From Trichococcus palustris (GTDB lineage Bacteria > Bacillota > Bacilli > Lactobacillales > Aerococcaceae), in assembly GCF_900114465.1 (NCBI RefSeq), contig NZ_FOTD01000001.1:124001-188000 (forward strand): DNA of 64,000 nt. The letters are read 5' to 3'. The notes beneath the pieces were generated by a model. It was not told the DNA's origin. It did no database searches and was given only the letters and a program-made list of their open reading frames with translations. Both the position numbers and the translations under genes were made by a program. Below are positions 33,516 through 50,213 of the stretch, piece after piece (position 1 is the first letter of the stretch; every line of letters starts with the position of its first letter).

Positions 33516-33646
33516 GTGCTATAGGATGACCAAGGCTAAGGCTCCAATAGGCATTTTTGCAAACGTTTTTTCCTAGGGTTTGGATTATTAATTCTTAATA
33601 CAACATCAGTGAAATATGTTACTAAATGGATTTGGGAGGTTTTGAA

Positions 33647-34399
33647 ATGGTTTCTGTAACGAATAGAATAGCGCAAGTAAAACAGCCAAGAGGTGGGTAT
33701 ATCAAGCCAAAGGATTTTAAGCTCATTGAACTGAATGACAGCAAAGAACTGTATCCAGATGAGAATACGCACAGTACTATCGTTGGTTTGGCCGTTGATT
33801 ATCTGACTAGATTTACGATGGGAACACCTGCTAAAGAAGCATTCAAAATTTCAATTCTCGGTTCCATGCTTGTTCATGAGAGTGATCATGCAATGGCACT
33901 TGTGGATGCTGTTATTGGACTTGACGATAGTTCCATTATCAATGCATGCAAGCTAGCTGGATTCGATGTAGCCCGCAGAGCGGGTGTTGCAGCTTATAGG
34001 CCTGTTGGAACTATTCTGCCGGATTATGAAACCATTTCAAACATACGGATTATGGTTGAGAGAGGCACTGCTTTCCTAAAAGAATTCGGCCCAATAGTGA
34101 AAGATGGCTTTACTTTTGAAGGCGGGTACACGCAGACAGTCTCCAGTGGCGATGGTGATTTTTTAACGGAGTCCACTCTCTGGGATTTCAAGGTTTCGAA
34201 GAAGGAACCCACTAATAAGCACACCTTGCAACTCCTCATGTACTATTTAATGGGCTCTCGTTCTATCCATGAAGAATTTCAGAATGTAGAAAAATTGGGG
34301 ATTTTCAACCCGAGATTAAATAAGGTGTACCTATTGAACATCAATGGAATTCCGTCTGAGGTCATCACTGAAGTGGCTAGTGATGTTATTGGTTATTGA
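33647..34399 (+). CDS. PD-(D/E)XK nuclease superfamily-like protein
   Basis: 250 residues from the ATG at 33647 (GGGAGG seven bases upstream; the frame is open for seven more codons). The C-terminal half has the pattern of a PD-(D/E)XK core: 'GDGDFLTESTLWDFKVSKKE' (acidic residue, then D-F-K) followed by 'HTLQLLMYYLMG', the Q/Y helix seen in this superfamily. The N-terminal 130 residues are helical and unknown. It follows the GmrSD-like gene and precedes another nuclease-like gene, suggesting a defence role, but I cannot name the system. Confidence 0.6.
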   Translation: MVSVTNRIAQVKQPRGGYIKPKDFKLIELNDSKELYPDENTHSTIVGLAVDYLTRFTMGTPAKEAFKISILGSMLVHESDHAMALVDAVIGLDDSSIINACKLAGFDVARRAGVAAYRPVGTILPDYETISNIRIMVERGTAFLKEFGPIVKDGFTFEGGYTQTVSSGDGDFLTESTLWDFKVSKKEPTNKHTLQLLMYYLMGSRSIHEEFQNVEKLGIFNPRLNKVYLLNINGIPSEVITEVASDVIGY

Positions 34400-34524
34400 C
34401 TAGAATAATTCATTCAACCATAAACCATAAAAATATGAATAGACTAAATTAAAAGTGGCGTAGAATTACATGAACTGATTCTAAATGGATATTATTCGAA
34501 TTTCTTGGAACTCAAGGCGACAAT

Positions 34525-35415
34525 GTGTCCTTAGGGGCGGACAACTTGCTTATCCAAAATATTTGGGACATGGCGAATCAAAGTATCCGGATAAAAATAC
34601 ATCATACTGGATTGGTGAAATCGAGAGGGGATGCAAATGTGATTGCTGAAATTAAAGGCAAGCTGAATCAAACAGGCTATAATTTGAATGACAGATTAGA
34701 AGATAATTTAACCGGGAATTTTTTTGGAACATTGAGGTACATCCCGTTTGATTTAGCTTTGCGAAAGATATTGTCAGGTGGAGTGTATCCAAGCGAAACA
34801 GGCGACAAAATTGGGGGAATTAGCGCTGACTTTTGGGGCGATAAAATAGAATTTTGGCCGTACGATACAGAAGGCGAAATTGATGCTTTGCTGCATTTTG
34901 ACGATACGATAATCGGTATCGAAGTAAAGTATGCAAGCGGACTATCATCCGATGATGATATAGATAACTCTGCTAAAATAGACGAGCAATCCATAGAAGA
35001 ACAAAGCAGAAATCAGCTTTCGCGAGAGTCCAGGATCGTTTCAAGACATGGTGCAGGTAAAACCAAAATTTTACTTTTCATAGCAAACAGCGACTCCTGC
35101 CGCACTGTTTATGATGATGTATTAAACCGCAAGATTATCAGTAATGATGTTACACTGGCGTACATTTCCTGGCAAAGCATTTTGGTGGAACTGGAAAAAT
35201 TGAAACTTGATAATCGATATTACCAAGTTATTATCGACGATTTAATTTCCTTGTTGAAGAAAAAAGGATTCGAAAGTTTCAAAGACATGAATGTACAGTT
35301 TGATGTGGATATTGATCAAACAAGTTTTTATTCATTCGGTGCAACAGACTCTTTAGATTTTAACATTAAAATGGATAGTACGATCGAGGGAGACTTACAC
35401 TATGAATTCAGTTGA
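34525..35415 (+). CDS. PD-(D/E)XK nuclease-like protein (possible broken 5' end)
   Basis: 296 codons from the GTG at 34525. The nuclease core is well defined: 'LEDNLTGNFFGTLRYIPFD' (59-77), then 'EGEIDALL' with D120 and 'GIEVKYASG' with E133 and K135. Many defence-associated nucleases share this E-D-x-L-T-x-N...FG start. The start is doubtful: no clear ribosome site is present, the same frame continues upstream as 'KWILFEFLGTQGDN' without an ATG, and another frame just before it reads 'GVELHELILNGYYSNF'. A frameshift near 34500 may therefore have cut off the N-terminus. It overlaps the next gene by 14 bases. Confidence 0.7.
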   Translation: MSLGADNLLIQNIWDMANQSIRIKIHHTGLVKSRGDANVIAEIKGKLNQTGYNLNDRLEDNLTGNFFGTLRYIPFDLALRKILSGGVYPSETGDKIGGISADFWGDKIEFWPYDTEGEIDALLHFDDTIIGIEVKYASGLSSDDDIDNSAKIDEQSIEEQSRNQLSRESRIVSRHGAGKTKILLFIANSDSCRTVYDDVLNRKIISNDVTLAYISWQSILVELEKLKLDNRYYQVIIDDLISLLKKKGFESFKDMNVQFDVDIDQTSFYSFGATDSLDFNIKMDSTIEGDLHYEFS

Positions 35416-35998
35416 AGAAAATATCCGGAATGCCTTTATTGCAGTACACAAAACTCATGAAAATGTTAATAAACTTATGGAATATTGCCGTACCATTGCG
35501 AATGAGAAAACAAACTACAATACTGCCAATGGAAAGATTTTAAGGTGGCAACCGGAAAGAGATTATTATTCGTGGTGTATGGATGATTTTATCCTTTTGT
35601 TCCAAAGAAAAACGGATACAAAGCTAACGAACGAATGGCGCGATGGTCCAGTATATGCCGTGGAAATCATGTTAAGTAACTATGAAAATCCCGAACAGAT
35701 GCCCACCATTTATTTGTCTAAGTTCGAGTATGAAGATATCGCTTCATGGGATAAGGGTTTTTCACAGTCAAATTTTTGGTCATTCTATTATCCATTGAGA
35801 GACGAGGACACTATGGTGTACCAACCGAATGTAGAAGGAATAACCCAAGCTACTCCAAAAACAAAAGAAATAGCGGATCTAGAATATCGGGGACTCAGCA
35901 AGGTGAGTTTCATGGATTTACCAATGATGAATGTAAATGCTGAAAATGTAGAAGATAAAATATTTGGTAACTTTGAGAAATTGTATCACTCCAAGTAA
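35402..35998 (+). CDS. Hypothetical protein in the nuclease cluster
   Basis: 198 residues with no recognised domain. It is acidic and rich in Tyr, Trp and Asn, with no signal or membrane segment. The N-terminus is helical ('SVEENIRNAFIAVHKTHENV'), and the middle is predicted mixed alpha/beta with 'PERDYYSWCMDDFILLFQRK'. It overlaps the preceding nuclease-like gene by 14 bases, so the two are translationally coupled and probably act together. A role as partner, inhibitor or specificity subunit of that nuclease is a guess. Confidence 0.7.
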   Translation: MNSVEENIRNAFIAVHKTHENVNKLMEYCRTIANEKTNYNTANGKILRWQPERDYYSWCMDDFILLFQRKTDTKLTNEWRDGPVYAVEIMLSNYENPEQMPTIYLSKFEYEDIASWDKGFSQSNFWSFYYPLRDEDTMVYQPNVEGITQATPKTKEIADLEYRGLSKVSFMDLPMMNVNAENVEDKIFGNFEKLYHSK

Positions 35999-36097
35999 TA
36001 CAGCCGCTCCAGTGAGACGATGGGAAGATCAATTATCAAAAACACAAAATTAATGTGGAACAGGGGAGCGTAAACATATGAGGGAGTGCATGCTAGC

Positions 36098-38344
36098 ATG
36101 AAAAAAGCACCTGCTGAATTATATAAAACTGTAATAAATGAAGTGACCTATTTGATAGATTCACTTGGTGAACCAACTGAGGAAAAAGAAATTTTAGAAC
36201 AGCAAAACGAAGCAAAGAAAAAATTAAATGGCGTACATAAGGAATTGCAAACATCCCTCGAACATCTTGCAAAAAATGCTGAGTGGGATGTATTTACGAT
36301 AGCCTTTTATGGGGAAACCAATGCTGGGAAATCTACGCTTATTGAAACATTGAGAATATTGCTATCTGAGCCTTCTAAGACAGAAGAACGAAAAATGTTC
36401 TATAGTTCTTCTCAAGCAATTGATCAAAGTGAGACCATCCTCAGACAATTCGAAGAAGACTTGAATCAAGTTAATATTAGCTTTGAAAAAAATATTGTAC
36501 AAATTAATGAAAAACTGGAAACCGCAGTTTCTCAAAAAACGAAGTTAATTGCAGAAAATAAATTGGAACATTGGAAAGTAGATGTCTTGGGGGCTTTGAT
36601 TTTTGAAAAGCGTCGTTCAAGTTTTTGTTACTTTATAAAGAGTTTCTTTAATCGTATGTTTGAACAGAAGGAAATGATCAAAGCTAAAGAGAGGATAGTA
36701 CTACTTGAAACGGAAACGTCTATTACGAATCAAGAAATCGATAAGATACAACGAGAATTAGACGAGACAAACTCAGAATGGCATAAAAAAATTGAGATGT
36801 TTTCCCCGGAAATCTCAAAATTAGAGGAAATCTTATCAAACCAAAATGATGAGATCCTGAAATATACTGATGGGAAAATTGTTGGGGACGGTCGTTCTGA
36901 TTACACACAGACAGTTGGTCAATATACATTTCGATATGAGAATCAGAATTTTGTAATTCTAGATTTACCAGGGATTGAAGGCAGAGAAGAAATTGTCATA
37001 GATGAAATTAATAATGCAGTTGAAAAAGCACATGCAGTTTTTTATATTAGCGCAAAGCCAGCACCACCACAAAACGGTGATGAGAAAACTGAAGGAACTA
37101 TTGATAAAATAAAGCACCATCTTTCACAGCATACAGAAGTCTACTTTGTTCATAACAAGCGTATCAAGAACCCAAAACAACTCAATAAAACGTTGATCGG
37201 TGAAGATGATAAGGTGGCTTTAAAGGAAGTTGACGACGTTCTAAATAAGGTTCTATCAGATCAATATGAAGGGCATAAAGTTCTTAGCGCTTACCCTGCA
37301 TTATTATCGGTGGGAAATTTTTGGAAAGACAAATTATGTAAGAATCAAGAAAAGTTTATCGAGCAGTTGGAGTCGGCTGATAATATACTAGAAGACAGTG
37401 GTGTCAAAGATTTTAGTGACTGGTTAAGAACCTCACTGGTAGATGAGAGCAAATCTAAAATAATCAGATCGAATTATCGAAAAATATCTTTCGCAATTGG
37501 TCATACTCAAGGGAATATTTCAGAAATTCAAAAACAATTCAATAACCTTGAAAAGAAATTTACACTAAATGAAAAATATACAAATCGGAAATTGGATGCA
37601 GAGTCGGAGATGCTTATACAAAATTTGAATAATGAAGAGATTAAGGTAATTGGAAAGTTCAAGAATAGGCTTCGGAAACAAATGTACAAGGAAATCGAAA
37701 AGGAGATTGATAAAGATGTATTTAAAGTCACTTTCGAAAAACAGATAAATATTGCGATAGATGAAACCAAGCATCTGCTGGAAGAGGGAATGAAAGGGGT
37801 CTCAAAGGAATTTGAGAAGGAAATCAAAGAAATTGTTAACAAGGAAGAAAGGTACACTGCTGAGTTACTACAATCTTTTGATGATTCTGCAAAATTTGAT
37901 TTTGAGTTCGAGCCGATCCTGAATATAAAAAATAGTGGTAGCATTGCTAGGACAATTTCATCCCTTGGATTCGGGGTATGGGGTATTATAATATCCAGTG
38001 GTCCGTTAATAACTGCCTTGGCTGTGGTTAGCATGATCATTAGTGTTGGTAAGAATATTTTAGGCTTCTTCAATCATGAGTATCGTGCTTCGCAGCAAAA
38101 AAAAGCAACTGATGAGAACATTGAAAAAATGGCTATTCAATTATCAGAAAGTATACGCGAAAATATCAAGAAAGCTCATGATCCATTAATGGAAGGAATT
38201 GAGAAAGTTAAAGGAAATTTGAGCTTCAAGATTAAGTATGTAAATAATATGAATCAGGTATTCCAAGAAGCAGAAAGAAAGCTGAAGTTACTATCATGGG
38301 AAATAGAGCAAGAAGGGATGGGCAAGCCAAATGGAAACAATTGA
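36098..38344 (+). CDS. Dynamin-like GTPase with coiled coil (Leo-type partner)
   Basis: 748 residues from the ATG at 36098 (GGGAG 11 bases upstream; an in-frame GTG lies at 36086). G1 is 'GETNAGKST' (72-80) and G3 'LDLPGIEG'. Between them is an unusually long insertion (about 180 residues) that is largely coiled coil. The C-terminal half is again helical with a hydrophobic pair ('GFGVWGIIISSGPLITALAV', 'VSMIISVG'), as in membrane-remodelling bacterial dynamins. Its end overlaps the start of the LeoA-like gene by 14 bases, so this is probably the LeoB/LeoC-type partner. A G4 motif is not obvious ('VHNKR'). Confidence 0.8.
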   Translation: MKKAPAELYKTVINEVTYLIDSLGEPTEEKEILEQQNEAKKKLNGVHKELQTSLEHLAKNAEWDVFTIAFYGETNAGKSTLIETLRILLSEPSKTEERKMFYSSSQAIDQSETILRQFEEDLNQVNISFEKNIVQINEKLETAVSQKTKLIAENKLEHWKVDVLGALIFEKRRSSFCYFIKSFFNRMFEQKEMIKAKERIVLLETETSITNQEIDKIQRELDETNSEWHKKIEMFSPEISKLEEILSNQNDEILKYTDGKIVGDGRSDYTQTVGQYTFRYENQNFVILDLPGIEGREEIVIDEINNAVEKAHAVFYISAKPAPPQNGDEKTEGTIDKIKHHLSQHTEVYFVHNKRIKNPKQLNKTLIGEDDKVALKEVDDVLNKVLSDQYEGHKVLSAYPALLSVGNFWKDKLCKNQEKFIEQLESADNILEDSGVKDFSDWLRTSLVDESKSKIIRSNYRKISFAIGHTQGNISEIQKQFNNLEKKFTLNEKYTNRKLDAESEMLIQNLNNEEIKVIGKFKNRLRKQMYKEIEKEIDKDVFKVTFEKQINIAIDETKHLLEEGMKGVSKEFEKEIKEIVNKEERYTAELLQSFDDSAKFDFEFEPILNIKNSGSIARTISSLGFGVWGIIISSGPLITALAVVSMIISVGKNILGFFNHEYRASQQKKATDENIEKMAIQLSESIRENIKKAHDPLMEGIEKVKGNLSFKIKYVNNMNQVFQEAERKLKLLSWEIEQEGMGKPNGNN

Positions 38345-40004
38345 AGTATTTAAAAAGCGACAGGCGGAGACGATTGAAGTCTTAAAACGATTGCTGAAAT
38401 TTCTTAGAGAAGCTGAACAGTTCGGGATCGACATTGATCCGAAATTTATGATTAAAGTGGAGAGCGCGATTAATCAAAAAGAGGAAGAAAAATTGAAAAT
38501 TGCACTTGTAGGTGGTTTCTCTGAGGGGAAAACATCTATCATTGCAGCCTGGGCAGAAAAATATGATAAGGATAAAATGAAAATCAGCCAAGCCGAATCT
38601 TCTGATGAAGTGGCGATTTTCGATTTTGATGATTTTGAATTAATCGATACACCTGGGCTTTTTGGATTTAAGGAGACAGCGAATAAAGAGAAATACATGG
38701 ATATCACAAAAAAATATGTTAGTGAAGCGAATTTACTTCTATATATCATGAACCCAAATAATCCGATCAAAGAAAGTCATAAAGATGAATTGATTTGGTT
38801 ATTCAAAGAATTGAATCTACTTTCCCGAACCGTATTCGTATTGAGCCGTTTCGATGAGGAAGTTGATATCGAGGATGAGTCTGACTACGAAGAAGGACTG
38901 CGTGTTAAGAGGGAAAACATTCGTAACCGTCTTATTGACTTTGGAATAATCGATTCATCTCAAGAATTAAGTATTATTGCTGTTTCAGCTAATCCATTTG
39001 AACAAGGTATCGATTATTGGCTTCAACACATGGAAGAGTTTAAGAAAATCTCTCATATAGGTGATCTTCAATATGCAACAACTGAAAAAATCGAAAAAGC
39101 TGGTAGCACAGGAGCCTTCTTTTTAGAATCTCAACAAAGTATTATCCGAGATATTTTAGGAAGAGAATTGCCGTTAGCAGAACAAAGAGTTCAGGAAGCA
39201 ACGGGGGAGTTCCAAAAGTTCAGTGAGGCATGTGAAGATATTCAAGCAGATATAGCTAAGACTGACCGCAAAATCAGCAATGCCAGATTAACTCTGCGGG
39301 AATTCGTGATGGATTTATTTACTGATTTGATTCTCCAAGCTGAGGGAACTGATATGGAGACTATTGGCGCGTTTTTCCAAAGAAATATTGGTGATGAAGG
39401 AATTGTACTTGAAACGAGAATCCAAAACGAGTTTGAACGCCAATTGGGTAGCATGGCGCATGAAATTGGGAAGATGGAAACAAGTTATAATGCAAGTTTC
39501 AATCACTATAACAGTATGGTTGGAGATCTTGCTTTCAAAGGGGTCAAAGCTGGTAGTAATTTCTTGAAAAACGGAGGGGTAACACTTACTAACAAAGGGA
39601 TTTTAGCTGCAAGAGATTTTATCATGCCGGCATTTAAATTTAAACCATGGCAGGCAGTAAAAATTGCCGATGGTGCAAACAAATTTATTGGTGGGGCTGG
39701 AGTTGGATTAGGAATTGCTGTTGAACTTTGGGATAGCTGGAGTAAAAAAAAGCAACAAGAGGAATTCGCCCAAACTATACGGGAAATGGTTGAGAGTTTT
39801 AATAAACAAAGAAAAGAGTCTTTAGAATTTATTAATGATCAAAATACTTTCGTTACTCAGTTTTTCCCAGGGTATACCGAATTACAGGATAAGTTGCAGA
39901 TGATGAAGAATGAAATGAGTGACAAGGAGAAGCTTCAGTCAGATTTTCAAAAATGGTGCTATGATGGGGAGATTATTGAGGCAGATTTTGAGGTGATTTC
40001 ATAG
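38331..40004 (+). CDS. LeoA/HP0731-family dynamin-like GTPase
   Basis: 557 residues, about the length of E. coli LeoA. G1 'GGFSEGKTS' (61-69), G3 DTPG (107-110) and G4-like SRFD (173-176) are present. Long helical stalk regions follow, with 'KFKPWQAVKIADGANKFIGG' and an amphipathic glycine-rich segment. Overall order and many phrases ('VGGFSEGKTSI', 'KKYVSEANLLLYIMN', 'TVFVLSRFDEE') match the LeoA family as I remember it. It overlaps the upstream dynamin gene by 14 bases. Leo proteins were first linked to toxin export in enterotoxigenic E. coli; bacterial dynamins are also linked to membrane repair under phage attack. Here it sits in a defence island. Confidence 0.88.
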   Translation: METIEVFKKRQAETIEVLKRLLKFLREAEQFGIDIDPKFMIKVESAINQKEEEKLKIALVGGFSEGKTSIIAAWAEKYDKDKMKISQAESSDEVAIFDFDDFELIDTPGLFGFKETANKEKYMDITKKYVSEANLLLYIMNPNNPIKESHKDELIWLFKELNLLSRTVFVLSRFDEEVDIEDESDYEEGLRVKRENIRNRLIDFGIIDSSQELSIIAVSANPFEQGIDYWLQHMEEFKKISHIGDLQYATTEKIEKAGSTGAFFLESQQSIIRDILGRELPLAEQRVQEATGEFQKFSEACEDIQADIAKTDRKISNARLTLREFVMDLFTDLILQAEGTDMETIGAFFQRNIGDEGIVLETRIQNEFERQLGSMAHEIGKMETSYNASFNHYNSMVGDLAFKGVKAGSNFLKNGGVTLTNKGILAARDFIMPAFKFKPWQAVKIADGANKFIGGAGVGLGIAVELWDSWSKKKQQEEFAQTIREMVESFNKQRKESLEFINDQNTFVTQFFPGYTELQDKLQMMKNEMSDKEKLQSDFQKWCYDGEIIEADFEVIS

Positions 40005-40005
40005 A

Positions 40006-40155
40006 CTCGAATATGAGTTAGTCTTCCTCCCGCTATACAGTCCGGAGCTAAATCTGATGGAGGGAATCTGGAAGCGGCTCAAAGAAACCGCCTTCAACAA
40101 TGTGTTATTTGGAACTAAAACTTCGCAGTTGCAGATAGGCCTAAATTTCGCTTAG
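40006..40155 (+). mobile_element. C-terminal remnant of an IS630-family transposase
   Basis: Immediately after the LeoA-like stop a frame reads 'LEYELVFLPLYSPELNLMEG' and continues 'IWKRLKETAFNNV', the C-terminal DDE region of IS630-type transposases (PxYSPELNxxExxW). It ends at TAG 40153. The rest of the transposase and both IS ends are missing. It marks an old recombination point between the dynamin pair and the riboswitch-restriction part of the island. Confidence 0.8.
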
Positions 40156-40257
40156 TAGCGCACTTCAAAAGCATAAAAAGGTACAAAACTACAAGTTCGC
40201 TTCGCGGACAAATCCATGACAGAAATGGAAAATCCTCGAATTGTTAGTCTAAAATGC

Positions 40258-40286
40258 TTGAAAAAGAAACGCTATCATGTAATAAT
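40258..40286 (+). promoter_or_regulatory. Likely promoter of the SAM-riboswitch transcript
   Basis: TTGAAA (40258-40263) and AATAAT (40281-40286) are 17 bases apart and end 20 bases before the riboswitch P1 stem. The assignment is by position and consensus only. Confidence 0.5.
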
Positions 40287-40305
40287 ATAGTCGAAAACTA
40301 AATAA

Positions 40306-40420
40306 CTTCTTTATCAAGAGAGATTGAGGGACTGGCCCTATGACATCTCAGCAACCGACTTGTGTGTGACTCACAGAAGTACGGTGCTAAATCCTGCAGA
40401 GAAATCTGAAAGATAAGGAG
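40306..40420 (+). ncRNA. SAM-I (S-box) riboswitch aptamer
   Basis: The conserved S-box core is present in order: P1 5' strand CTTTATC, AAGAGAGATTGAGGGACTGG, CCCTATGACATCTCAGCAACC with the kink-turn and pseudoknot bases, a P3 arm, GGTGCTAAATCCTGCAG, P4, and the P1 3' strand GATAAGG (40412-40418). It binds S-adenosylmethionine and turns expression off when SAM is plentiful. Its 3' strand continues into an antiterminator: AAGGAGAGT (40415-40423) can pair with ACTCTTCTT (40439-40447), which otherwise forms half of the terminator. It precedes a 94-residue protein and the hsdR gene rather than a methionine or cysteine gene. Confidence 0.95.
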
Positions 40421-40430
40421 AGTAAACGTT

Positions 40431-40467
40431 AAATCCCAACTCTTCTTGTTTAAAGAAGGGTTTTTTT
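40431..40467 (+). terminator. Riboswitch-controlled terminator
   Basis: CTTCTT (40442-40447) and AAGAAG (40453-40458), extended by outer pairs of AAATCCC with GGGTTT, followed by T7. The 5' half overlaps the antiterminator partner, so the two are mutually exclusive. Confidence 0.85.
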
Positions 40468-40499
40468 GTTTTCAAAAAAACAAAATGGAGGGAAAGATG

Positions 40500-40784
40500 A
40501 TGAAATTAACAAAAGAACAAATTTCAACATGTAAAAAAATGGAAGAAAATGGTGGCCCAAAAAGTTATGCTGGGGCTATGCTGTACCATCAATACAAGTT
40601 ACAAAAAGAGCAGATCATAATCGCAAAAAATACTGGTGAAGAGAAATTGAAAGACCAGCTTGTCCAAAAGGTACAGGACATTCAAATGCTGGGAAATGAG
40701 ATAGAAGACAAACACCAACAATTGGGAAAGAAAAAAATTGAATTAGAGGCGCTGATTGAAGCGATCGGGATGCTCAATGACTAA
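40500..40784 (+). CDS. 94-residue coiled-coil protein under the SAM riboswitch
   Basis: Starts at ATG 40500 with GGAGGG seven bases upstream (an ATG directly before it is also possible). The first 35 residues are mixed ('KLTKEQISTCKKMEENGGPK'). From about residue 40 to the end it is a single charged helix with heptad spacing ('EEKLKDQLVQKVQDIQMLGN'), likely a coiled coil. No membrane segment or known domain was seen. It is the first gene after the SAM-I riboswitch and is 212 bases before hsdR. I do not recognise the family. It may be a small regulator or assembly factor for the restriction system, but that is speculation. Confidence 0.7.
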   Translation: MKLTKEQISTCKKMEENGGPKSYAGAMLYHQYKLQKEQIIIAKNTGEEKLKDQLVQKVQDIQMLGNEIEDKHQQLGKKKIELEALIEAIGMLND

Positions 40785-40996
40785 CCTGCAAAAATCTACG
40801 ATATACTGGCCTGTAACAAGAAGCAAAGCCATCACCCGGCATTGTCTAGTTCAAATTCATCTCTTTTTTTTCGTTCTAGTAGATTCAACATCCGAAAATG
40901 CTTTGTAGTCAGAATTAGATTGAATAACTGGCGGAATATTGAGATAATGAAAAAAAGGAAATTAAGCGATATTGCGTACCGAATGGGAGGGCTAGC

Positions 40997-43771
40997 ATGG
41001 CCTATCAAAGTGAATCAGCATTAGAAAACAAACTAATCGAACAACTAGTCTCAAAAGGCTACCAATGGGTACCGGAAGTCAGAAGCGAAGCAACGATGAT
41101 TGCAAACTTCCGAACCATTCTGGAAACACGAAACAGCGCCAACATAGGGGATGAACCCCTTACCGATAAAGAATTTGACCGTCTGATGACACAGATCAAC
41201 GGCAAGAGCATCTTCGACAGCGCCAAAATTCTACGGGACAAGGCGCTGCTCAAACGCGACAACGGCAAGAACCTCTATCTGGAGCTGTTCAACACAAAAG
41301 AATGGTGCAAGAACACTTTTCAGGTCACCAATCAGATCAGCATGGAGGGGAAATACGCCAACCGCTATGATGTGACCATCCTGATCAACGGTCTGCCGCT
41401 CGTGCAAGTGGAACTGAAACGAAGCGGCGTAGACATGACGGAAGCATTCAACCAAATCATGCGCTACCGCAAGCACACCTACACCGGACTGTTCCGCTAC
41501 ATCCAAGTCTTCGTCATCAGCAATAGCCAGGAAACCCGCTATTTCTCCAACAGCGACGGGGAAATCCTGAAGAGCCAGATGTTCTACTGGTCCGATGTGG
41601 ACAACAACCGGATCAATTTGCTGAATGAATTTGCGGACAGCTTCATGGAGAAATGCCATTTGGCGAAGATGCTGGCACGCTACATGGTGCTGAACGAAAC
41701 AGACAAAATCCTCATGGTGATGCGTCCTTATCAGGTCTATGCGGTGGAAGCGTTGGTGCGGCAAGCTTTGGAAACAAGGAACAACGGCTACATCTGGCAT
41801 ACGACAGGCAGCGGGAAGACGCTAACCTCTTTCAAGGCCAGCCAGATCATCGCACAGGAAGAAGGCATAGAAAAAGTGTTTTTCCTGGTGGACAGAAGGG
41901 ACCTGGATTCCCAAACATTAGCGGAGTTCAACAAATTTGAAGCGGATTCCGTGGACATGACCGACAACACCTACACACTGTTGAAGCAGATGGGTGACAA
42001 GACCAAACCGTTGATTCTGACGACCATCCAGAAGATGGCTAATGCCGTCAAGTCCGGCCGTAAGGTGATCGACAGCTATCGGGAAGATCGCGTTGTTTTC
42101 ATCATTGACGAATGCCACCGGACCCAATTTGGCGAGATGCACAAACTGATCCGTAAGCACTTCAAGAATGCCCAGTATTTCGGCTTCACGGGGACCCCTC
42201 GTTTTCCGGAGAACCCTAGTCAAGACGGCCGTGTGACAGCGGACATTTTCCAAAGATGTCTGCACAGCTACCTCATCAAGGATGCCATCCGGGATGAGAA
42301 TGTGTTGGGCTTCTCGGTGGAATACATCAGCACCTTCCGGGGCCAGTTCGACGAAGAGGACCAGGAACGGGTGGCAGGCATCAACACGAATGAAGTGTGG
42401 ATGGCAGATGAACGGCTGGAGGACATCACCCAGCATATCCTGAAAAACCACCGCAAGAAAACCAAAGACCAGCAATACACCGCCATCTTCACCGTCCAAA
42501 GCATCAAGATGGCGATCAAATACTATGACCTCTTCAAGCAATACGCAGAAGGGATCAATGTATCCAGCATCTTCACCTATGGAGCGAACGAACCCGGCAA
42601 TGAAGACATCACAACGGAGCATTCAAGGGACAGCCTAGAACGGATCATGAAAGACTATAACGAAACCTTCAACACGAATTTCGCAACGGATAATTTCAGC
42701 GGCTACTTTGCTGATGTGTCCAAACGCATCAAGAAAGGCGTGTCCGGCGAAAAACTGGACATCCTCATTGTGGTGGACATGTTCCTGACGGGCTTCGACA
42801 GCAAACCACTCAACACCTTGTACGTGGATCGGAACCTGAAATACCACACCTTGCTACAGGCCTATTCCCGGACGAACCGGATCGAAAAAGAAACCAAACC
42901 ATACGGGAACATCGTGTGCTACCGCAACCTGAAGTACCAAACCGATGAAGCTATCAAGCTGTACTCACAGACGAACGACACCGATACCGTTCTGATGGCC
43001 AGCTATGACGAGTACTTGGCTGAATTCCGTACCGCGTTGGCGTCCTTACTGCAGCTTTCCCCGACACCGGAATCGGTCGATCAACTAGAATCCGAAGAGG
43101 AACAGTATCAATTTGTAGTACTCTTTAGAGAACTGTCAAAACTGCTTTTGAAGATGCGGACGTTCGATGAGTTTGAGTTTTCGGAAGACGCCATCGGGAT
43201 GGTGGAACAGAACTACCAGGACTTCAAGAGCAAGTATTTCGCCATCTACGAGAAGGTGAAAAAGAAAAAGAAGGGCGAAGAAGTTTCTATCCTCGACAGC
43301 ATCGACTTTGCGATTGAAGTCATCCAAACAGATACCATCAATGTCAGCTACATTCTGAATCTCATCCGCAACATCAATCTGACGGACGACGCCGAGCGCG
43401 AGAAAGATGTTGCGACCATCCACCGCCTTTTGAATCAAGCGGACAATGAAGACCTACGCCTGAAAGCGGATCTGATCCGCAAGTTCCTGGACACCGTTTT
43501 ACCAGCGCTTGAAAAGGACTGCAATGTTGACGAAGCGTACAACGCCTTCGAAGAAGAGGAACGTGAAGGGGAAATCTATGACTTTGCCAAAAATGTGGAG
43601 CTGGAGCCGCTAGTGGTCAACGAATTTTTGGCGGAGTACGAATACAGCGGCAGTCTGAATAGGGAACGGGTTTCCGACCAGATCAACGGCAGTTTCATCA
43701 AAAAACGCAGGAAAATCGACCGCATCTTTGATTTTGTCTTGGAAAACACACGCAAGTTCATGTCTGTTTAG
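40997..43771 (+). CDS. hsdR: Type I restriction enzyme subunit R
   Basis: 924 residues. The N-terminal PD-(D/E)XK nuclease has D125 ('YDVTIL') and 'VQVELKRSG' with E139 and K141. The SF2 translocase has Walker A 'TTGSGKT' (269-275), DECH (371-374), motif III 'GFTGTP' and motif VI '[13 protein letters not shown]'. A helical C-terminal region should contact the methylase. It is the motor that translocates and cuts unmethylated DNA. GGGAGGG lies five bases before the ATG. Its base composition is visibly GC-richer than the genes downstream (43.8-51.4 kb). hsdM and hsdS follow only after a 950-residue insertion. Confidence 0.96.
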
Positions 43772-43829: not shown

Positions 43830-46682
43830 ATGGATATTTTAGCCCCTATTTTTGAGCAAATCAAAAAGAAAGAAAAGCGGCATAAAGAAAAAATATTAGT
43901 CGGGCTCATCGATGTTACCGCTGAAGAATATGCCTCATTAGAAAAAAAAGCCAAAGAGATAATGGTAAGTTACAAGCACCATCCCTACATTTATCCAGCA
44001 CAATGCGACATTTTGTCTATCTATGCTATTCTTTTTGATATGTATAAATATTCTGGCGATCGCTTTTGGGAGTCTTTGGCGATACATGTTGGGTTGGATG
44101 AAAAATTCGTGCGGGATATCATCATAGAAGCAATGAAAACAACCTTCGAGAGCCGATACTGGAGTTTTTATCAAACAACCAGAAATGAGTATGTCGAAAC
44201 AATCCGAATGCATGGAATAATCGGAAATGACAGCTCAGGAGACAAGATTATCTATGCGCTCTATGTCATCTATCTAAAAGATTTTGAAAAAGAAATAACC
44301 AGCGAAAAGCTGGATCTATTCTTTCCTTATTTACGAAAAATATTCAAAAAGTATGAGGGCAGCGCGGATGAGAATGCCACTACATATGATGTAAATGGCA
44401 TTACGTACATTCGCGGACAGATACCAAAGTCCTTTATGCATGCCTTTTTGCTCAATCCTTCTGCGGTCGCTACCGTGCTGAAGAATATTTTTTATTACTT
44501 TGAAGATATGGAGTGCGGAAAGAGCGAACGTTGTACAATCAATGAGCGATTCGAAAACAAGATTAATGTCAGCTTTAAAAGAAACGATGCCTTTGAAAAT
44601 GAATATACAAGGGCGTACATTCATAAAAAGCCAAAGAGAATTCCGCAGAAGGATAAAATTGAGTATCAACAAAGAGCGGTCCGACTGCATGTGCCAAGGC
44701 ATTTTATCGATTTCCAGTCGAATGAAGATCAGAATGTAGTGCTTAAGGTATTCAACTTCCAGCATTTGTTGAAAACTACCCCGATGAATATATCTTCTGG
44801 GGGCATTGGTTGGAAAAGTGATCCCATTGATTTAACTTTTGCAAAGCAATATAAAAATATACGCTATACAATAGAGAAGAAAAAGACAAAAGAAATAATT
44901 TATGACAGTAAGAAAGAGCTTTATCAAGAGAGTGTAAATGAGAGCAAGAAGTTGAAAACGAAAGAAACATCACCTATACCAGATACGAAAAAAGAGCCTC
45001 TACCGTTGAATACAAATGTATTCACCCTGCATCCAAACGGGGAGAGAATCGAGACTTCATTGAATGAGTTGAAACCAGGGTATGTTTATGAAATTTCACC
45101 GCCGAATGGATTCAGTATTGATAAGGCCGATCACAAAAAAACAAATGAAAGTCTTTTTGTTTTAGCAATGAATCGTACTGAAGTGTATGACGGGGAAATG
45201 AAATACTGTATTCGGCCACACAAACGGATGATTACTTTTTCTCGTGAGCAATACATCCCTAGACTGAGTGTAAGTGTTGACGATATATCATATGATATTT
45301 TGACGGGCACAAATAGAGTCGGTATTGTGATGGGATTTCCGTATTCATTGAATGAGTTGCAGCTAAAAGTGAATGACGAAATCTATGGTGGATTAGCCAT
45401 TCGAAAAAAACTACTAAAAGAAGTAAAACTAATGGATAATGGCGATTTTTTGTATGTCATGGAAATATCAGAAGGATTGAAGAAACAAGACACAAATATG
45501 CTTCAAGCCTATATAAACATAAAAGGTTTACAGTTGAAATACGTCCAACAGCGTTTCTATTACGATCCGGAGTGGTCATTCAGCTATCAACACGTGCAGT
45601 TTCAAAACAAGGAGTACATCCAAATAGACAATGTTTCTCAGTTGGATAGTAGCAAAGAAATAACCAACATGGACGATACCAAATTGTCGCTATTCCTCAA
45701 ACAACAAGATAAACCGCTCCAAGTTATTCTTAATAAAGGGAAGGCGAAAAAAGAGAATAGGAGCCTCTCGATTAAAGAGATTGAAACGGCGTACTTGTAT
45801 GATCCAGATTCGAAGCGGACAGTGACGGATGATGACAAGGGAAGAATTTTATCTCAACTTCATGATGAGTGGAATGAGATCATAAAGGAATTAATTAGCC
45901 TTTTACTCAAGGACACAAGTGCTGACAGCTTCATTGACAATCTCATGAATAACTATCTCAGTTTCAGGGATACGTTTGCTGGTTGTCTACTTGAAGTAGA
46001 TGACGAATTTACAGATCATATATTGTCCGGACTAAGTAATGCACTATTTGGCGAAGCCACTGCGGATGGTAAATACAACAAATATGTTAAAGAGCTAATT
46101 AGAATCTTAGCTGCCAAACAATCAGAACCAGCGACACAACGACATATTGCGACTGCATTGAGAGCTTATCAGATACCAATCGAGGATGAGAAGCTTCACG
46201 GGAATATTAATAATGTTCTACATTATCACGCACCAGTTTCTGCCAGAAAAAATGAGCTATTTTCAGGAGAGATTTTGCTGAATGATATTTCACCGGAAAA
46301 CCAGAAACTTTCGCTTAGGCTTTATAGATTGGCTACCAACCCGACATTAAGTGAGTTTGATACGATACTAGAAGTTAAAGATATTCAGGCAGAGTACCCT
46401 GATAAAGATGCCATGTCCTATTATGAATTGATAATTACCTTCAAGCTCTTTATATCAGATAAGCAGCTTGCCAACAGCATTGTCGATAGGCACTTGTTTA
46501 TGGCCATGTTTTATCAATTTGTAATTGAATACAACAGAGAGACCATCTGTGAGTTCATGAATGAATTGGAGAAACACATAGACAAAAAAGTGAATGAGCA
46601 AGAAAATCTTCTCATTCGGGAACGTCTAATTCGGGTTGCGAAAACTTTGAATCTGGATGTACTAATCACAAAAACGGTGTAA
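43830..46682 (+). CDS. Large protein of unknown function inside the restriction locus
   Basis: 950 residues, no recognised domain. There is no Walker A, helicase motif, obvious nuclease motif, signal peptide or membrane helix. The N-terminal 230 residues are helical with repeated aromatic blocks ('HHPYIYPAQCDILSIYAILF', 'YSGDRFWESLAIHVGL'). A Lys/Glu-rich linker near 360-400 leads to a beta-rich middle (about 405-610) that could be Ig-like strands, and a helical C-terminal part from about 690. AAGGAAGAG precedes the ATG. The gene is AT-rich compared with hsdR and ends in its own perfect terminator, so it looks like a cassette inserted between hsdR and the methylase genes. A defence role is inferred from position only. 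Confidence 0.8.
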   Translation: MDILAPIFEQIKKKEKRHKEKILVGLIDVTAEEYASLEKKAKEIMVSYKHHPYIYPAQCDILSIYAILFDMYKYSGDRFWESLAIHVGLDEKFVRDIIIEAMKTTFESRYWSFYQTTRNEYVETIRMHGIIGNDSSGDKIIYALYVIYLKDFEKEITSEKLDLFFPYLRKIFKKYEGSADENATTYDVNGITYIRGQIPKSFMHAFLLNPSAVATVLKNIFYYFEDMECGKSERCTINERFENKINVSFKRNDAFENEYTRAYIHKKPKRIPQKDKIEYQQRAVRLHVPRHFIDFQSNEDQNVVLKVFNFQHLLKTTPMNISSGGIGWKSDPIDLTFAKQYKNIRYTIEKKKTKEIIYDSKKELYQESVNESKKLKTKETSPIPDTKKEPLPLNTNVFTLHPNGERIETSLNELKPGYVYEISPPNGFSIDKADHKKTNESLFVLAMNRTEVYDGEMKYCIRPHKRMITFSREQYIPRLSVSVDDISYDILTGTNRVGIVMGFPYSLNELQLKVNDEIYGGLAIRKKLLKEVKLMDNGDFLYVMEISEGLKKQDTNMLQAYINIKGLQLKYVQQRFYYDPEWSFSYQHVQFQNKEYIQIDNVSQLDSSKEITNMDDTKLSLFLKQQDKPLQVILNKGKAKKENRSLSIKEIETAYLYDPDSKRTVTDDDKGRILSQLHDEWNEIIKELISLLLKDTSADSFIDNLMNNYLSFRDTFAGCLLEVDDEFTDHILSGLSNALFGEATADGKYNKYVKELIRILAAKQSEPATQRHIATALRAYQIPIEDEKLHGNINNVLHYHAPVSARKNELFSGEILLNDISPENQKLSLRLYRLATNPTLSEFDTILEVKDIQAEYPDKDAMSYYELIITFKLFISDKQLANSIVDRHLFMAMFYQFVIEYNRETICEFMNELEKHIDKKVNEQENLLIRERLIRVAKTLNLDVLITKTV

Positions 46683-46784: not shown

Positions 46785-47375
46785 ATGAGGTATCAAATAG
46801 ATGAGATAGCCAAGCTCCAACCAGGACAATTGCTGACTCGTATCACAGAAGTGAATGACCCGAATGCCATTGGTTATGTAGTGTACTCCGGAAAGCATTT
46901 TTTAACCGATTCATTTCAGCACGAGTCGGATGACGGAAAACAAGATAAAATCATCCGAACAGATGAAACCGTGATGCTTGCCGAACAAGGTATGCTCCTG
47001 ATTAGCCTGACAACGAACAAGGCGGCCATTGTCAGCACCGAACATGAGGGACACCTACTGACTTCAAACTATGTCCGGGTAGCTTACGATGCCAACAAAA
47101 TAGATCCGAATTATTTTTGCTATGTCTACAATGAGTCGGATGAAGTAAAAAAGCAAATTGCCATGAATGAACAGGGAGCAAGTCTTGTATCCCGATTAAG
47201 CCTGCAGCAATTACGCAAGTTTGAACTTTTTTGTCCCCCTTTAGAGGACCAGCATAGAGTAGGTGCGATATACCGTCTCCAGCAAAAAAGAGAGCTGCTG
47301 AAATTAGAAAAAAGCAAGCTAGAAAAATTGGCAGTGCATGCTTTACTAAATAAATACCTACAAGGGAGAAAATAA
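46785..47375 (+). CDS. Half-size HsdS-like protein (single target-recognition domain)
   Basis: 196 residues. It has the form of one target-recognition domain plus one conserved helix: 'GMLLISLTTNKAAIVSTEHE', 'SNYVRVAYDANKIDPNYFCY', 'VSRLSLQQLRKFELFCPPLE', then 'DQHRVGAIYRLQQKRELLKL' as the spacer helix. Full HsdS proteins have two such units and about 400 residues. It starts two bases' distance before hsdM and is co-transcribed with it. It might dimerise to give a second specificity, or act as an adaptor; the full-length HsdS downstream makes it non-essential for ordinary activity. GGAGATGAGGGG precedes the ATG. Confidence 0.8.
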   Translation: MRYQIDEIAKLQPGQLLTRITEVNDPNAIGYVVYSGKHFLTDSFQHESDDGKQDKIIRTDETVMLAEQGMLLISLTTNKAAIVSTEHEGHLLTSNYVRVAYDANKIDPNYFCYVYNESDEVKKQIAMNEQGASLVSRLSLQQLRKFELFCPPLEDQHRVGAIYRLQQKRELLKLEKSKLEKLAVHALLNKYLQGRK

Positions 47376-47377
47376 AA

Positions 47378-49003
47378 ATGAGTACATCAGCAAAACAAAA
47401 GGTGCAACAAACAGAACTACATAAGAAACTATGGTCCATCGCCAACGATCTGCGCGGTACAATGGACGCCAGCGAATTTCGTAACTATATTCTAGGACTG
47501 ATCTTCTACCGCTACCTATCTGAAAAAACGGAACAACGGGTAGCTAAGCTGTTGGAAGAAGATAACATCACCTATGAAGAAGCATGGAATGATTTCGAGT
47601 ATCAAGAAGGCCTGAAGGAAGAATTGATAGCCCAAATCGGGTATGTCATCGAGCCTCACGACCTATATTCAGCAATGGTGGCGGAAATAGAAAAGGGTGA
47701 ACAAGGGAATTTCGACGTCGAAGTACTCGAAAAGGCCATCAATAAAATTGAAGAATCCACTTTAGGTCACGCTAGCCAAGAGGACTTCAATCACCTGTTT
47801 GATGACATGGATCTATCTTCATCCCGATTAGGGAATTCCGTTAAGGCACGATCCAGTCTGATCGCGAAAGTCATCATTAACCTCAATACCCTAGATTTCA
47901 TGCATGAAGATGCGGAAATTGATGTGCTAGGGGATGCCTATGAATACTTGATTGGACAGTTTGCAGCGAATGCAGGCAAGAAGGCAGGAGAGTTTTATAC
48001 ACCTCAACAAGTTTCCAAGATTCTGGCTAAAATCGTAACACTCAACAAAACCGACCTGAAAAATGTCTATGACCCGACTTGTGGATCCGGTTCGTTGTTG
48101 CTTCGCATAGGGAATGAAGCGAATGTCCGCCATTACTATGGACAGGAGCTCAACAGTACCACCTACAACTTGGCCCGCATGAATATGCTGCTGCACGAAG
48201 TATCCTTCCAAGATTTCGATATAGAAATAGGTGACACCTTGGAGCATCCACATTTTGATGACATGCGTTTCGAGGCCGTTGTTGCCAATCCGCCATACAG
48301 CGCGAATTGGAGTGCCGATGCGAAATTCCTGGATGACGAACGTTTCAGTAGCTACGGCAAACTGGCACCGAAATCGAAAGCAGACTTCGCCTTTGTCCAA
48401 CACATGATCTATCATCTGGATGACAACGGCACAATGGCGGTTGTATTGCCGCACGGCGTCCTATTCCGTGGAGCGGCTGAAGGAACTATTCGCCAATATC
48501 TCATCGAAGAAAAGAACTATTTGGATGCGGTCATCGGGTTGCCCGCCAATGTATTCTACGGAACCAGCATTCCGACCTGCATCCTGGTTTTCAAGAAATG
48601 CCGCCAAAACGACAATAGTGTTCTCTTCATCGATGCATCAAATGAATTCGAAAAAGCGAAGAATCAAAACAATCTGACCGATGCGAACGTGGAAAAGATC
48701 GTGACTACCTACAAAAATAGGGAAGCAATCGAAAAATACAGCTATGTGGCTACTTTGGATGAAATCAAGGAAAACGACTACAACCTAAACATTCCGCGCT
48801 ACGTGGATACGTTCGAGGAAGAAGAACAAATCTCGCTTGAGGAAGTTGCAACCGCGATTCAACATACCCAAAAAGAAATCATGCAAGCAGAGAAGGAATT
48901 GTTTGCGCTGTTTGGAGAATTGCATGGAACAACCAAAGAAGCGGAACGAGAATTGCAGAATGCGCTAGCGAAATTGATGAATGTTGGTGATGGAAATGAG
49001 TAA
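47378..49003 (+). CDS. hsdM: Type I restriction-modification DNA methylase subunit M
   Basis: 541 residues. The N-terminal HsdM helical domain ('ANDLRGTMDASEFRNYILGL') is followed by the N6-adenine methylase domain with motif I 'DPTCGSGSLL' (232-241) and motif IV NPPY (304-307). A C-terminal helical tail contacts HsdS. It uses S-adenosylmethionine to methylate host sites, and the SAM riboswitch 7 kb upstream lies on the same strand. GGGAG precedes the ATG. The 3' end overlaps hsdS by eight bases, so M and S are translationally coupled. Confidence 0.97.
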   Translation: MSTSAKQKVQQTELHKKLWSIANDLRGTMDASEFRNYILGLIFYRYLSEKTEQRVAKLLEEDNITYEEAWNDFEYQEGLKEELIAQIGYVIEPHDLYSAMVAEIEKGEQGNFDVEVLEKAINKIEESTLGHASQEDFNHLFDDMDLSSSRLGNSVKARSSLIAKVIINLNTLDFMHEDAEIDVLGDAYEYLIGQFAANAGKKAGEFYTPQQVSKILAKIVTLNKTDLKNVYDPTCGSGSLLLRIGNEANVRHYYGQELNSTTYNLARMNMLLHEVSFQDFDIEIGDTLEHPHFDDMRFEAVVANPPYSANWSADAKFLDDERFSSYGKLAPKSKADFAFVQHMIYHLDDNGTMAVVLPHGVLFRGAAEGTIRQYLIEEKNYLDAVIGLPANVFYGTSIPTCILVFKKCRQNDNSVLFIDASNEFEKAKNQNNLTDANVEKIVTTYKNREAIEKYSYVATLDEIKENDYNLNIPRYVDTFEEEEQISLEEVATAIQHTQKEIMQAEKELFALFGELHGTTKEAERELQNALAKLMNVGDGNE

Positions 49004-50213
49004 TAAAAAGCAGCAAATTCCTTCCATTCGTTTTGAAGGTTTTATTGACGCTTGGGAACAGCGTCAGTTAGGTGAGGCATTGGTGGAAATGAAGAGTGGA
49101 CTATCACGATTGCTTTCAAATGAAGATATAGGTCTTCCTGTTATTAGAGCAAATAACATAAATAATGGGAACCTTGATTTAGTTAATGATATAAAGTACT
49201 GGTATGTTAATGATCCTCAAGGAGCAAATACTAGAAATTATTTAGTTCATAAAAGTGACATATTAGTTAATTTTATTAATAGTGAAGCAAAGATGGGAAC
49301 AGCGACAATTGTTACTATAGAGCCTATTAGAGATACTATTTATACTACTAATGTTTTAAAACTTAAAACTAATGAAAACAATAATCCATATTTTATTTTC
49401 TCTTTAACCATGACAGGTAGTTATGATAAATATGTAAAAATCATTACAAAACCAGCGGTAAATCAAGCAAGCTTTACCACGGTAGATTTTAAAAAATATG
49501 AATTTTTTGCTCCTAAATTAGAGGAACAAACCAGAATCGGGAATTTATTTAAGCAACTGGATGATACTATCGCTCTTCATCAGCGTCAACTGGATAACTA
49601 CAAACAACTAAAGAAATCCATGATACAAAAGATCTTCGACCAAGAGCTTAGGTTCAAAGACGTAGATGGAAATGATTATCCCAAATGGAAAAGAGGTACC
49701 CTTGGAGAAATTTCAGAAATAATCATGGGACAATCTCCAGATAGTGCTAACTATACATCCAATGAGCAAGATACAGTTTTAATTCAGGGAAATGCAGATT
49801 TAAATGGAGGCAAAATCACTCCTAGGATTTACACTACTCAAATAACCAAAACATGTGAAGCAGGAGACATTATATTAACCGTTCGTGCTCCAGTGGGGGA
49901 TCTGGCCATTGCTAATACAAGGGCATGCATTGGGCGTGGCGTGTGTGCTATAAAAGGAGACCCGTATATTTTTCACTATTTAGAAATGATACGTGATACT
50001 GATGGATGGCGTAAAATAATACAAGGGAGTACCTTTGAGTCAATTAATTCTAATGATGTTAAAGATCTACTCATAGATGTTCCAAGTAGCGAAGAGCGAA
50101 AAAAAATTGCTATCTTTCTTTCTGCGTTAAACAAGAAAGTCGAAAATCAAGAAAATATGATTACCTTACTGAAAGAACAAAAAAAAGGATTTATGCATCA
50201 ACTGTTTATATAG
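48996..50213 (+). CDS. hsdS: Type I restriction enzyme specificity subunit S
   Basis: 405 residues from the ATG at 48996, in frame with an earlier ATG at 48981. The layout is the classic two-fold one: 'IRFEGFIDAWEQRQLGEALV', target-recognition domain 1 (about 20-165), conserved helix 'QTRIGNLFKQLDDTIALHQR', domain 2 starting 'DYPKWKRGTLGEISEI', and a final helix 'ERKKIAIFLSALNKKVENQE'. The first recognition domain is markedly AT-rich compared with the start of the gene, as expected for exchanged recognition modules. It overlaps hsdM by eight bases. The recognised DNA sequence cannot be predicted here. Confidence 0.95.
   Translation: MSNKKQQIPSIRFEGFIDAWEQRQLGEALVEMKSGLSRLLSNEDIGLPVIRANNINNGNLDLVNDIKYWYVNDPQGANTRNYLVHKSDILVNFINSEAKMGTATIVTIEPIRDTIYTTNVLKLKTNENNNPYFIFSLTMTGSYDKYVKIITKPAVNQASFTTVDFKKYEFFAPKLEEQTRIGNLFKQLDDTIALHQRQLDNYKQLKKSMIQKIFDQELRFKDVDGNDYPKWKRGTLGEISEIIMGQSPDSANYTSNEQDTVLIQGNADLNGGKITPRIYTTQITKTCEAGDIILTVRAPVGDLAIANTRACIGRGVCAIKGDPYIFHYLEMIRDTDGWRKIIQGSTFESINSNDVKDLLIDVPSSEERKKIAIFLSALNKKVENQENMITLLKEQKKGFMHQLFI

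Follow-up and report, generated by a model that had tools for sequence, protein, structure and literature searches.

The SAM-I riboswitch (S-box) that precedes hsdR in Trichococcus palustris very probably belongs to a self-contained, horizontally moving cassette that also carries a small gene and is switched on at low SAM, with hsdR as a neighbour. It lies in a 64-kb stretch of DNA (the window; contig C6, positions 124001-188000) of a draft assembly of 52 contigs that totals 2.93 Mb. Comparative sequence analysis documents the parts of the cassette (Table 1), the pairing of leader and small gene, the duplication of the cassette, the promoter-like site of hsdR and the constraint on leader and gene; the direction of regulation is one that we infer.

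Table 1. Features of the cassette and of hsdR (window coordinates)
Feature	Position	Strand	Basis
Presumed remnant of an IS630-type transposase, before the module	40015-40120	+	read from the sequence
Self-contained module: promoter, leader with the S-box, small ORF and first part of its own terminator	40256-40836	+	blastn to the C45 copy
Promoter-like site TTGAAA-17-AATAAT	40258-40286	+	promoter scan; also in the C45 copy
SAM-I (S-box) aptamer	40308-40419	+	RF00162, 87 bits (gathering score 44.4), E 3e-19
Predicted antiterminator helix, 40412-40423 pairing with 40439-40450 (12 bp)	40412-40450	+	MFE fold
Predicted intrinsic terminator (riboswitch platform): hairpin at 40438-40462, then a T-run	40438-40469	+	terminator scan
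Small gene, GGAGGG just upstream	40497-40784	+	95 aa from ATG 40497, 94 aa from ATG 40500
Remaining left arm of the terminator-like hairpin at the module's 3' end	40827-40836	+	cut at the junction
hsdR promoter-like site TTGAAT-17-GATAAT	40920-40948	+	scan; same hexamers and spacing before T. flocculiformis hsdR
hsdR, type I restriction subunit	40997-43771	+	HSDR_N, SWI2/SNF2 and EcoR124_C domains; Pfam and PADLOC

The SAM-I leader

A first-pass annotation of this DNA had described a complete S-box with antiterminator and terminator and had suggested a covariance search against Rfam SAM-I as a check. Both the description and the check hold. The aptamer is a full-length match to RF00162 (model positions 1-108) well above the gathering score, and it is the sole Rfam match at the gathering threshold in the 64-kb window. 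In the predicted fold the antiterminator takes up the 5' arm of the terminator, and the whole leader folds with z = -4.36. Since the three promoters and one terminator called by the scan are within the range of shuffled sequence, conservation weighs more for these calls. Among 13 distinct leaders, the pairs of aptamer and terminator hold in 91.6% of cells, with both-sided changes at three pairs, and the terminator helix is 100% paired, counting cells with letters on both sides. The antiterminator is paired in 92.9% of cells, compared with 44-73% when slid; the pair at its outer end is a standard one in no more than 4 of the 13 leaders, and a search of the leader alignment for compensatory change in this helix found none.

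Mean column identity across 14 leaders is 91%. The conserved SAM-pocket sequences GCAACC and GGTGC, which hold contact positions of the solved structure, occur in the window aptamer and in 13 related leaders. By sequence and folding, the leader has the terminator/antiterminator platform of SAM-I. We conclude that this is a real SAM-I riboswitch, of the transcription-terminating type as judged by its sequence. In terminating S-boxes, transcription stops when SAM is present, and the window RNA presumably binds SAM and switches off at high SAM. At high SAM, the aptamer would fold, the terminator would form and transcription would halt near position 40465; at low SAM, formation of the antiterminator would allow the small protein to be made.

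With classical SAM-I (RF00162) the window leader shares the full-length aptamer, the terminating platform and the GCAACC and GGTGC sequences. It differs in its client, a small protein outside the known families where classical S-boxes serve methionine, cysteine or SAM genes, and in the joint movement of leader and gene as one cassette. The draft genome contains two further SAM-I matches and one SAM-III element. An RF00162 search found matches at three places: in the window, on contig C45 with a score equal to that of the window, and at a third site with 43.7 bits. The latter precedes a decarboxylase-type gene (named by eye) and agrees with a spermidine-sensing variant of SAM-I, that of Trichococcus ldcC, which was tested for T. 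ilyis with a lacZ fusion in Bacillus subtilis (PMC10853860). The leader at this third site has an altered J1/2 and P3 (TTATTAATAG, GGCAAACC) and scores about 44 bits; by contrast, the window aptamer scores 87 bits and has a canonical core, with neither the changed J1/2 and P3 nor the polyamine gene behind that mark the variant. The other SAM sensor, an SMK box (SAM-III, RF01767, 61.1 bits), is a different aptamer and serves SAM synthase: a metK frame (by eye) stands directly behind it. Since metK is under the SMK box and the decarboxylase leader is a variant, the only canonical S-boxes found in the draft serve the small gene.

The small protein

The earlier observation that the S-box heads a small gene, and not a met, cys or metK gene, is confirmed: the ORF stands directly behind the leader, and its product is none of the usual methionine, cysteine or SAM enzymes or transporters, though it may still have a part in SAM metabolism. 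The protein, with the core motif GGPKSxAxAMLYHQYK, has no match in Pfam or PADLOC (E ≤ 0.01) or in NCBIfam (E ≤ 1), and matches to PHROGs are weak (best E 0.021). AlphaFold2 predicts a helix (residues 5-16), a loop and a long helix (residues 23-93) with a mean pLDDT of 93.3 and a pTM of 0.51; the conserved GGPKS forms the loop between the short and the long helix. A PDB fold search with this model returned no match at E ≤ 0.001 and 17 at E ≤ 10.

Small proteins from other genomes are 34-54% identical to that of the window (9 aligned). The comparison of substitution rates covers the 45 of 91 gene pairs with dS below 1.2: dN/dS is 0.14-0.51 in 42 of these, and the other three have zero synonymous change. 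Substitution patterns show both the leader and the small ORF to be under constraint. As to function, our guess is that the protein is a candidate helical regulator or adaptor made during shortage of SAM or methionine.

A duplicated cassette

The window module and its copy on C45 share 560 of 584 positions (96%; blastn, 581-bp block), and the DNA beyond this block is unrelated between the two; the 3.1-kb C45 locus has otherwise just two matches of about 50 bp elsewhere in the window. There is no hsdR at the C45 copy. Because the shared block starts at the promoter and ends inside a terminator-like hairpin, we define the cassette as promoter, S-box and small ORF. The 3' hairpin is whole in the C45 copy (positions 4226-4200 of the extracted locus L004, minus strand), and homology stops in its left arm, which argues that the window cassette was cut at its 3' end. 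Between the two copies, 189 of 190 aligned leader positions are identical, compared with 268 of 285 in the coding sequence, and dN/dS for the two small genes is 0.23.

Both copies lie near restriction-modification genes, namely hsdRMS in the window and an EcoRV-type endonuclease with a D12 methyltransferase on C45. A tblastn search with the small protein (E ≤ 0.01) found no homolog in 72,556 plasmid or 50,697 phage records, and none of the 118 stretches of viral contigs that fitted a sequence pattern encodes a relative. With no homologs in these plasmid, phage and viral searches, we rejected a phage or plasmid origin of the cassette.

Distribution of the small gene

A protein-first search of 76 genomes of the family located the small gene at 14 loci in 13 genomes. 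It is present in 12 of 13 Trichococcus genomes: T. palustris, with two copies, and 11 of the 12 others, the twelfth being a genome that is 51% complete. The remaining carrier belongs to another genus, and its copy is closest to those of T. palustris (58%). At all 14 loci an S-box of 71-87 bits lies directly upstream of the gene.

Extending the search by profile to 395 genomes of the order brought in four remote homologs, all from one genus of another family; profile comparison supports homology over the 27 columns that surround the GGPxS core (E 3e-9). These genes also follow an S-box in every case (4/4, 60-67 bits), which brings the pairing to 18 of 18 loci found by protein. They begin 9-10 nt past the aptamer, and the ribosome site falls on the aptamer's 3' edge. 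This arrangement suggests translational instead of transcriptional control. The remote homologs keep the S-box with a platform that seems altered, which suggests that the association of S-box and protein survived a shift in the mode of control.

A DUF488 gene follows the small gene at 36-1139 nt in each of the 11 other Trichococcus carriers (within 38 nt in six of them); one of these proteins was identified by Pfam and the others by matching its first residues. A PiT transporter frame lies near the small gene on the same strand in these 11 genomes, upstream wherever its position is listed. The genome from the related genus has a different DUF488 gene, located upstream of the small gene. A literature search on DUF488 gave nothing bearing on the locus among the matches listed. 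T. palustris has the PiT gene, with other genes behind it and no S-box at that place, so that both of its copies of the cassette look acquired; we infer a foreign origin for them.

S-boxes across Lactobacillales

Among the 395 genomes, 106 contain S-boxes, and we picked 40 of these for a survey. Set aside were 36 members of a single family, in which each genome has three to seven S-boxes (all four of the loci viewed there precede metE-like frames), the 11 genomes of the genus itself, the four genomes with remote homologs, the one from the related genus, 13 genomes with weak matches and one of two genomes of low completeness. The 40 genomes gave 48 matches, of which 47 were viewed and the other was below the cut-off. 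As sorted by eye, 34 of the 47 loci precede an intact small ORF, and six precede a broken-looking one (one broken only at its start), where sequencing errors in draft assemblies may account for some of the breaks. Four loci precede metK and one an amino-acid permease-like gene, all named by eye; at two of the 47, no ORF was seen behind the S-box.

Ten representative small proteins had no Pfam match above the cut-off (best sub-threshold E 0.00085). Since profile comparison joins only groups a and b, groups e and g and, marginally, c and d, there appear to be several unrelated families. A single superfamily of groups c, d, e and g was considered and rejected: the merged profiles gave E 0.089, and about 9 of 40 column shuffles scored at least as high, a count that rests on the top ten scores, eight of them above 13.9. 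A protein-first search of 390 genomes for the commonest other group, with one split match counted once, located it at 22 loci in 17 genomes; of these loci, 19 are beside a listed S-box and the other three are fragments. For four other groups, dN/dS is 0.12-0.50 in 19 of 20 listed pairs, the exception being 0.94 on five changes. A published description of this pattern of S-box and small ORF was absent among the matches listed by our search, which left most subscription journals outside.

In Trichococcus, and in most of the other surveyed genomes of the order, the retained S-boxes thus serve small proteins that belong to no known family. This points to an uncharacterized, fast-evolving protein layer in the response to SAM shortage, and it makes low SAM a clear handle for working out the roles of these proteins.

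hsdR and alternative explanations

HsdR, HsdM and HsdS are all encoded in the window (Pfam, PADLOC). The small ORF and hsdR are on the same strand, separated by 212 bp. The first-pass annotation saw no clear terminator between them, and our scan agrees in finding no terminator-like site there, because the module's own hairpin is cut at the junction. These three features favour the proposal that the S-box was recruited for hsdR and its restriction-modification operon and that read-through past the small gene raises restriction at low SAM. The wider comparison speaks against it. At the other 17 small-gene loci the S-box also heads the small gene, and an Rfam scan of other hsdR loci (20 of 24 retrieved, flanks up to about 1.5 kb) found an S-box at 0 of 20, so an S-box ahead of hsdR is not conserved in the relatives scanned. 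Relatives of hsdR at E ≤ 1e-100 occur in 71 of 295 genomes. The nearest, from T. flocculiformis (92% amino acid identity), matches the window DNA from position 40901 onward and differs from it upstream of this hsdR-proximal stretch; blastn found no cassette in the 494 bp upstream of hsdR on its contig, and the cassette that T. flocculiformis does possess is on a different contig. A separate hsdR promoter, which the earlier reading itself had named as evidence against riboswitch control, is recognizable at the sequence level in the form of the promoter-like site common to both orthologs. In addition, low SAM would raise the nuclease while methylation is limited, which we would expect to be hazardous. 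Based on the hsdR loci and the comparison with T. flocculiformis, we rejected S-box control of hsdR as the main reading and judge SAM-responsive restriction very unlikely. hsdR is most likely a neighbour and not a client of the riboswitch. With the terminator of the window cassette gone, transcription may run on from this copy into hsdR, and this could be selected in this one strain, but we see no sign that such read-through is conserved. Our favoured explanation, a mobile low-SAM cassette, would have the window copy inserted into a defence island just upstream of hsdR, losing its 3' terminator at the junction. As hsdR keeps its own promoter, from which it would be driven, any response of restriction to SAM would come from incidental read-through. 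That two elements are neighbours in one genome is therefore poor ground for inferring SAM control of restriction.

The presumed IS remnant just upstream could point to a leader left stranded after a met gene was replaced beside it, as the first-pass annotation had offered in second place. This idea finds no support, because leader and ORF move together and are both constrained: the two were duplicated as one unit and their pairing recurs at 18 of 18 loci. We regard it as scarcely credible. More serious is the thought that the active product is the terminated leader, an RNA working in trans, and that the small ORF is secondary. In Listeria, SreA and SreB are terminated leader RNAs acting in trans. 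Such a role would explain the many unrelated ORFs behind S-boxes. It agrees with the occurrence of several unrelated ORF families behind single S-boxes in the order, and with leaders that are far better conserved (91% mean column identity, 14 leaders) than the proteins (34-54%, 9 aligned). However, the ORFs have ribosome sites and are under purifying selection, both in the small-gene family (0.14-0.51) and in the four other groups, and in four genomes the homologous protein stands behind an S-box without a separate terminator leader. A leader RNA acting in trans is very improbable for these reasons. Also very improbable, by our estimate, is that in mobile defence islands the cassette is a SAM-depletion alarm: the small protein would come on when SAM falls and back the neighbouring restriction-modification system, and the copy in the chromosomal slot would serve ordinary SAM stress. 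A phage enzyme that destroys SAM to escape restriction is an example of such depletion. The view that the neighbourhood is coincidental has to accept that both T. palustris copies lie near restriction-modification genes.

In a small test for enrichment near restriction or mobile genes, 5 of 20 S-box loci had seed-like proteins (8 in all), as against 1 such protein at 1 of 20 same-contig control places. The test is biased toward a difference because all 11 seeds came from S-box neighbourhoods (window, C45 and survey loci), one of them from the very locus that it then matched, and we base no conclusion on it. The type I operon of the window also includes a 950-aa gene with no family match that is absent from the T. 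flocculiformis operon.

Neighborhood of the two cassette copies

The second copy of the cassette (promoter-like site, SAM-I leader and small gene), located on contig C45 of the same genome, lies less than 4 kb from genes for an EcoRV-family endonuclease and a D12 adenine methyltransferase. On its opposite side, this copy is flanked by two recombinase-like genes, one of which is confirmed by Pfam. The copy in the window neighbors defense-island genes (30969–40004). Behind the GmrSD-type gene of this island follow three ORFs; the two that were searched matched neither Pfam nor NCBIfam.

In the type I restriction operon, searches of the 950-aa ORF against Pfam, PADLOC and NCBIfam at E ≤ 0.01 returned no match. 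The operon of T. flocculiformis lacks this ORF, although the rest of it matches the operon in the window.

Features near the cassette copies, in the restriction operon and near an hsdR relative
Feature	Coordinates	Remarks
GmrSD-type gene	30969–33515	
LeoBC/LeoA-like dynamin pair	36086–40004	
950-aa ORF	43830–46682	after hsdR, before half-length hsdS-like gene
hsdS-like gene, half-length	46785–47375	upstream of hsdM
hsdS, full-length	48981–50213	downstream of hsdM
EcoRV-family endonuclease and D12 adenine methyltransferase	L004:817–2753	contig C45
c-di-GMP-I riboswitch	L004:18351–18436	minus strand, 58 bits
Azaaromatic (yjdF) riboswitch	L165:701–800	close to one hsdR relative

Related loci in other genomes

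The S-box aptamers of two loci (L124 and L126) contain GCAGCAG in place of the canonical GCAACC, and both precede members of one small-protein group. This change may alter ligand binding. A public record named "Sedimentibacter sp. SX930" contains the Trichococcus locus (L034) and is classed in the genus of the window; the name on this record is probably wrong.
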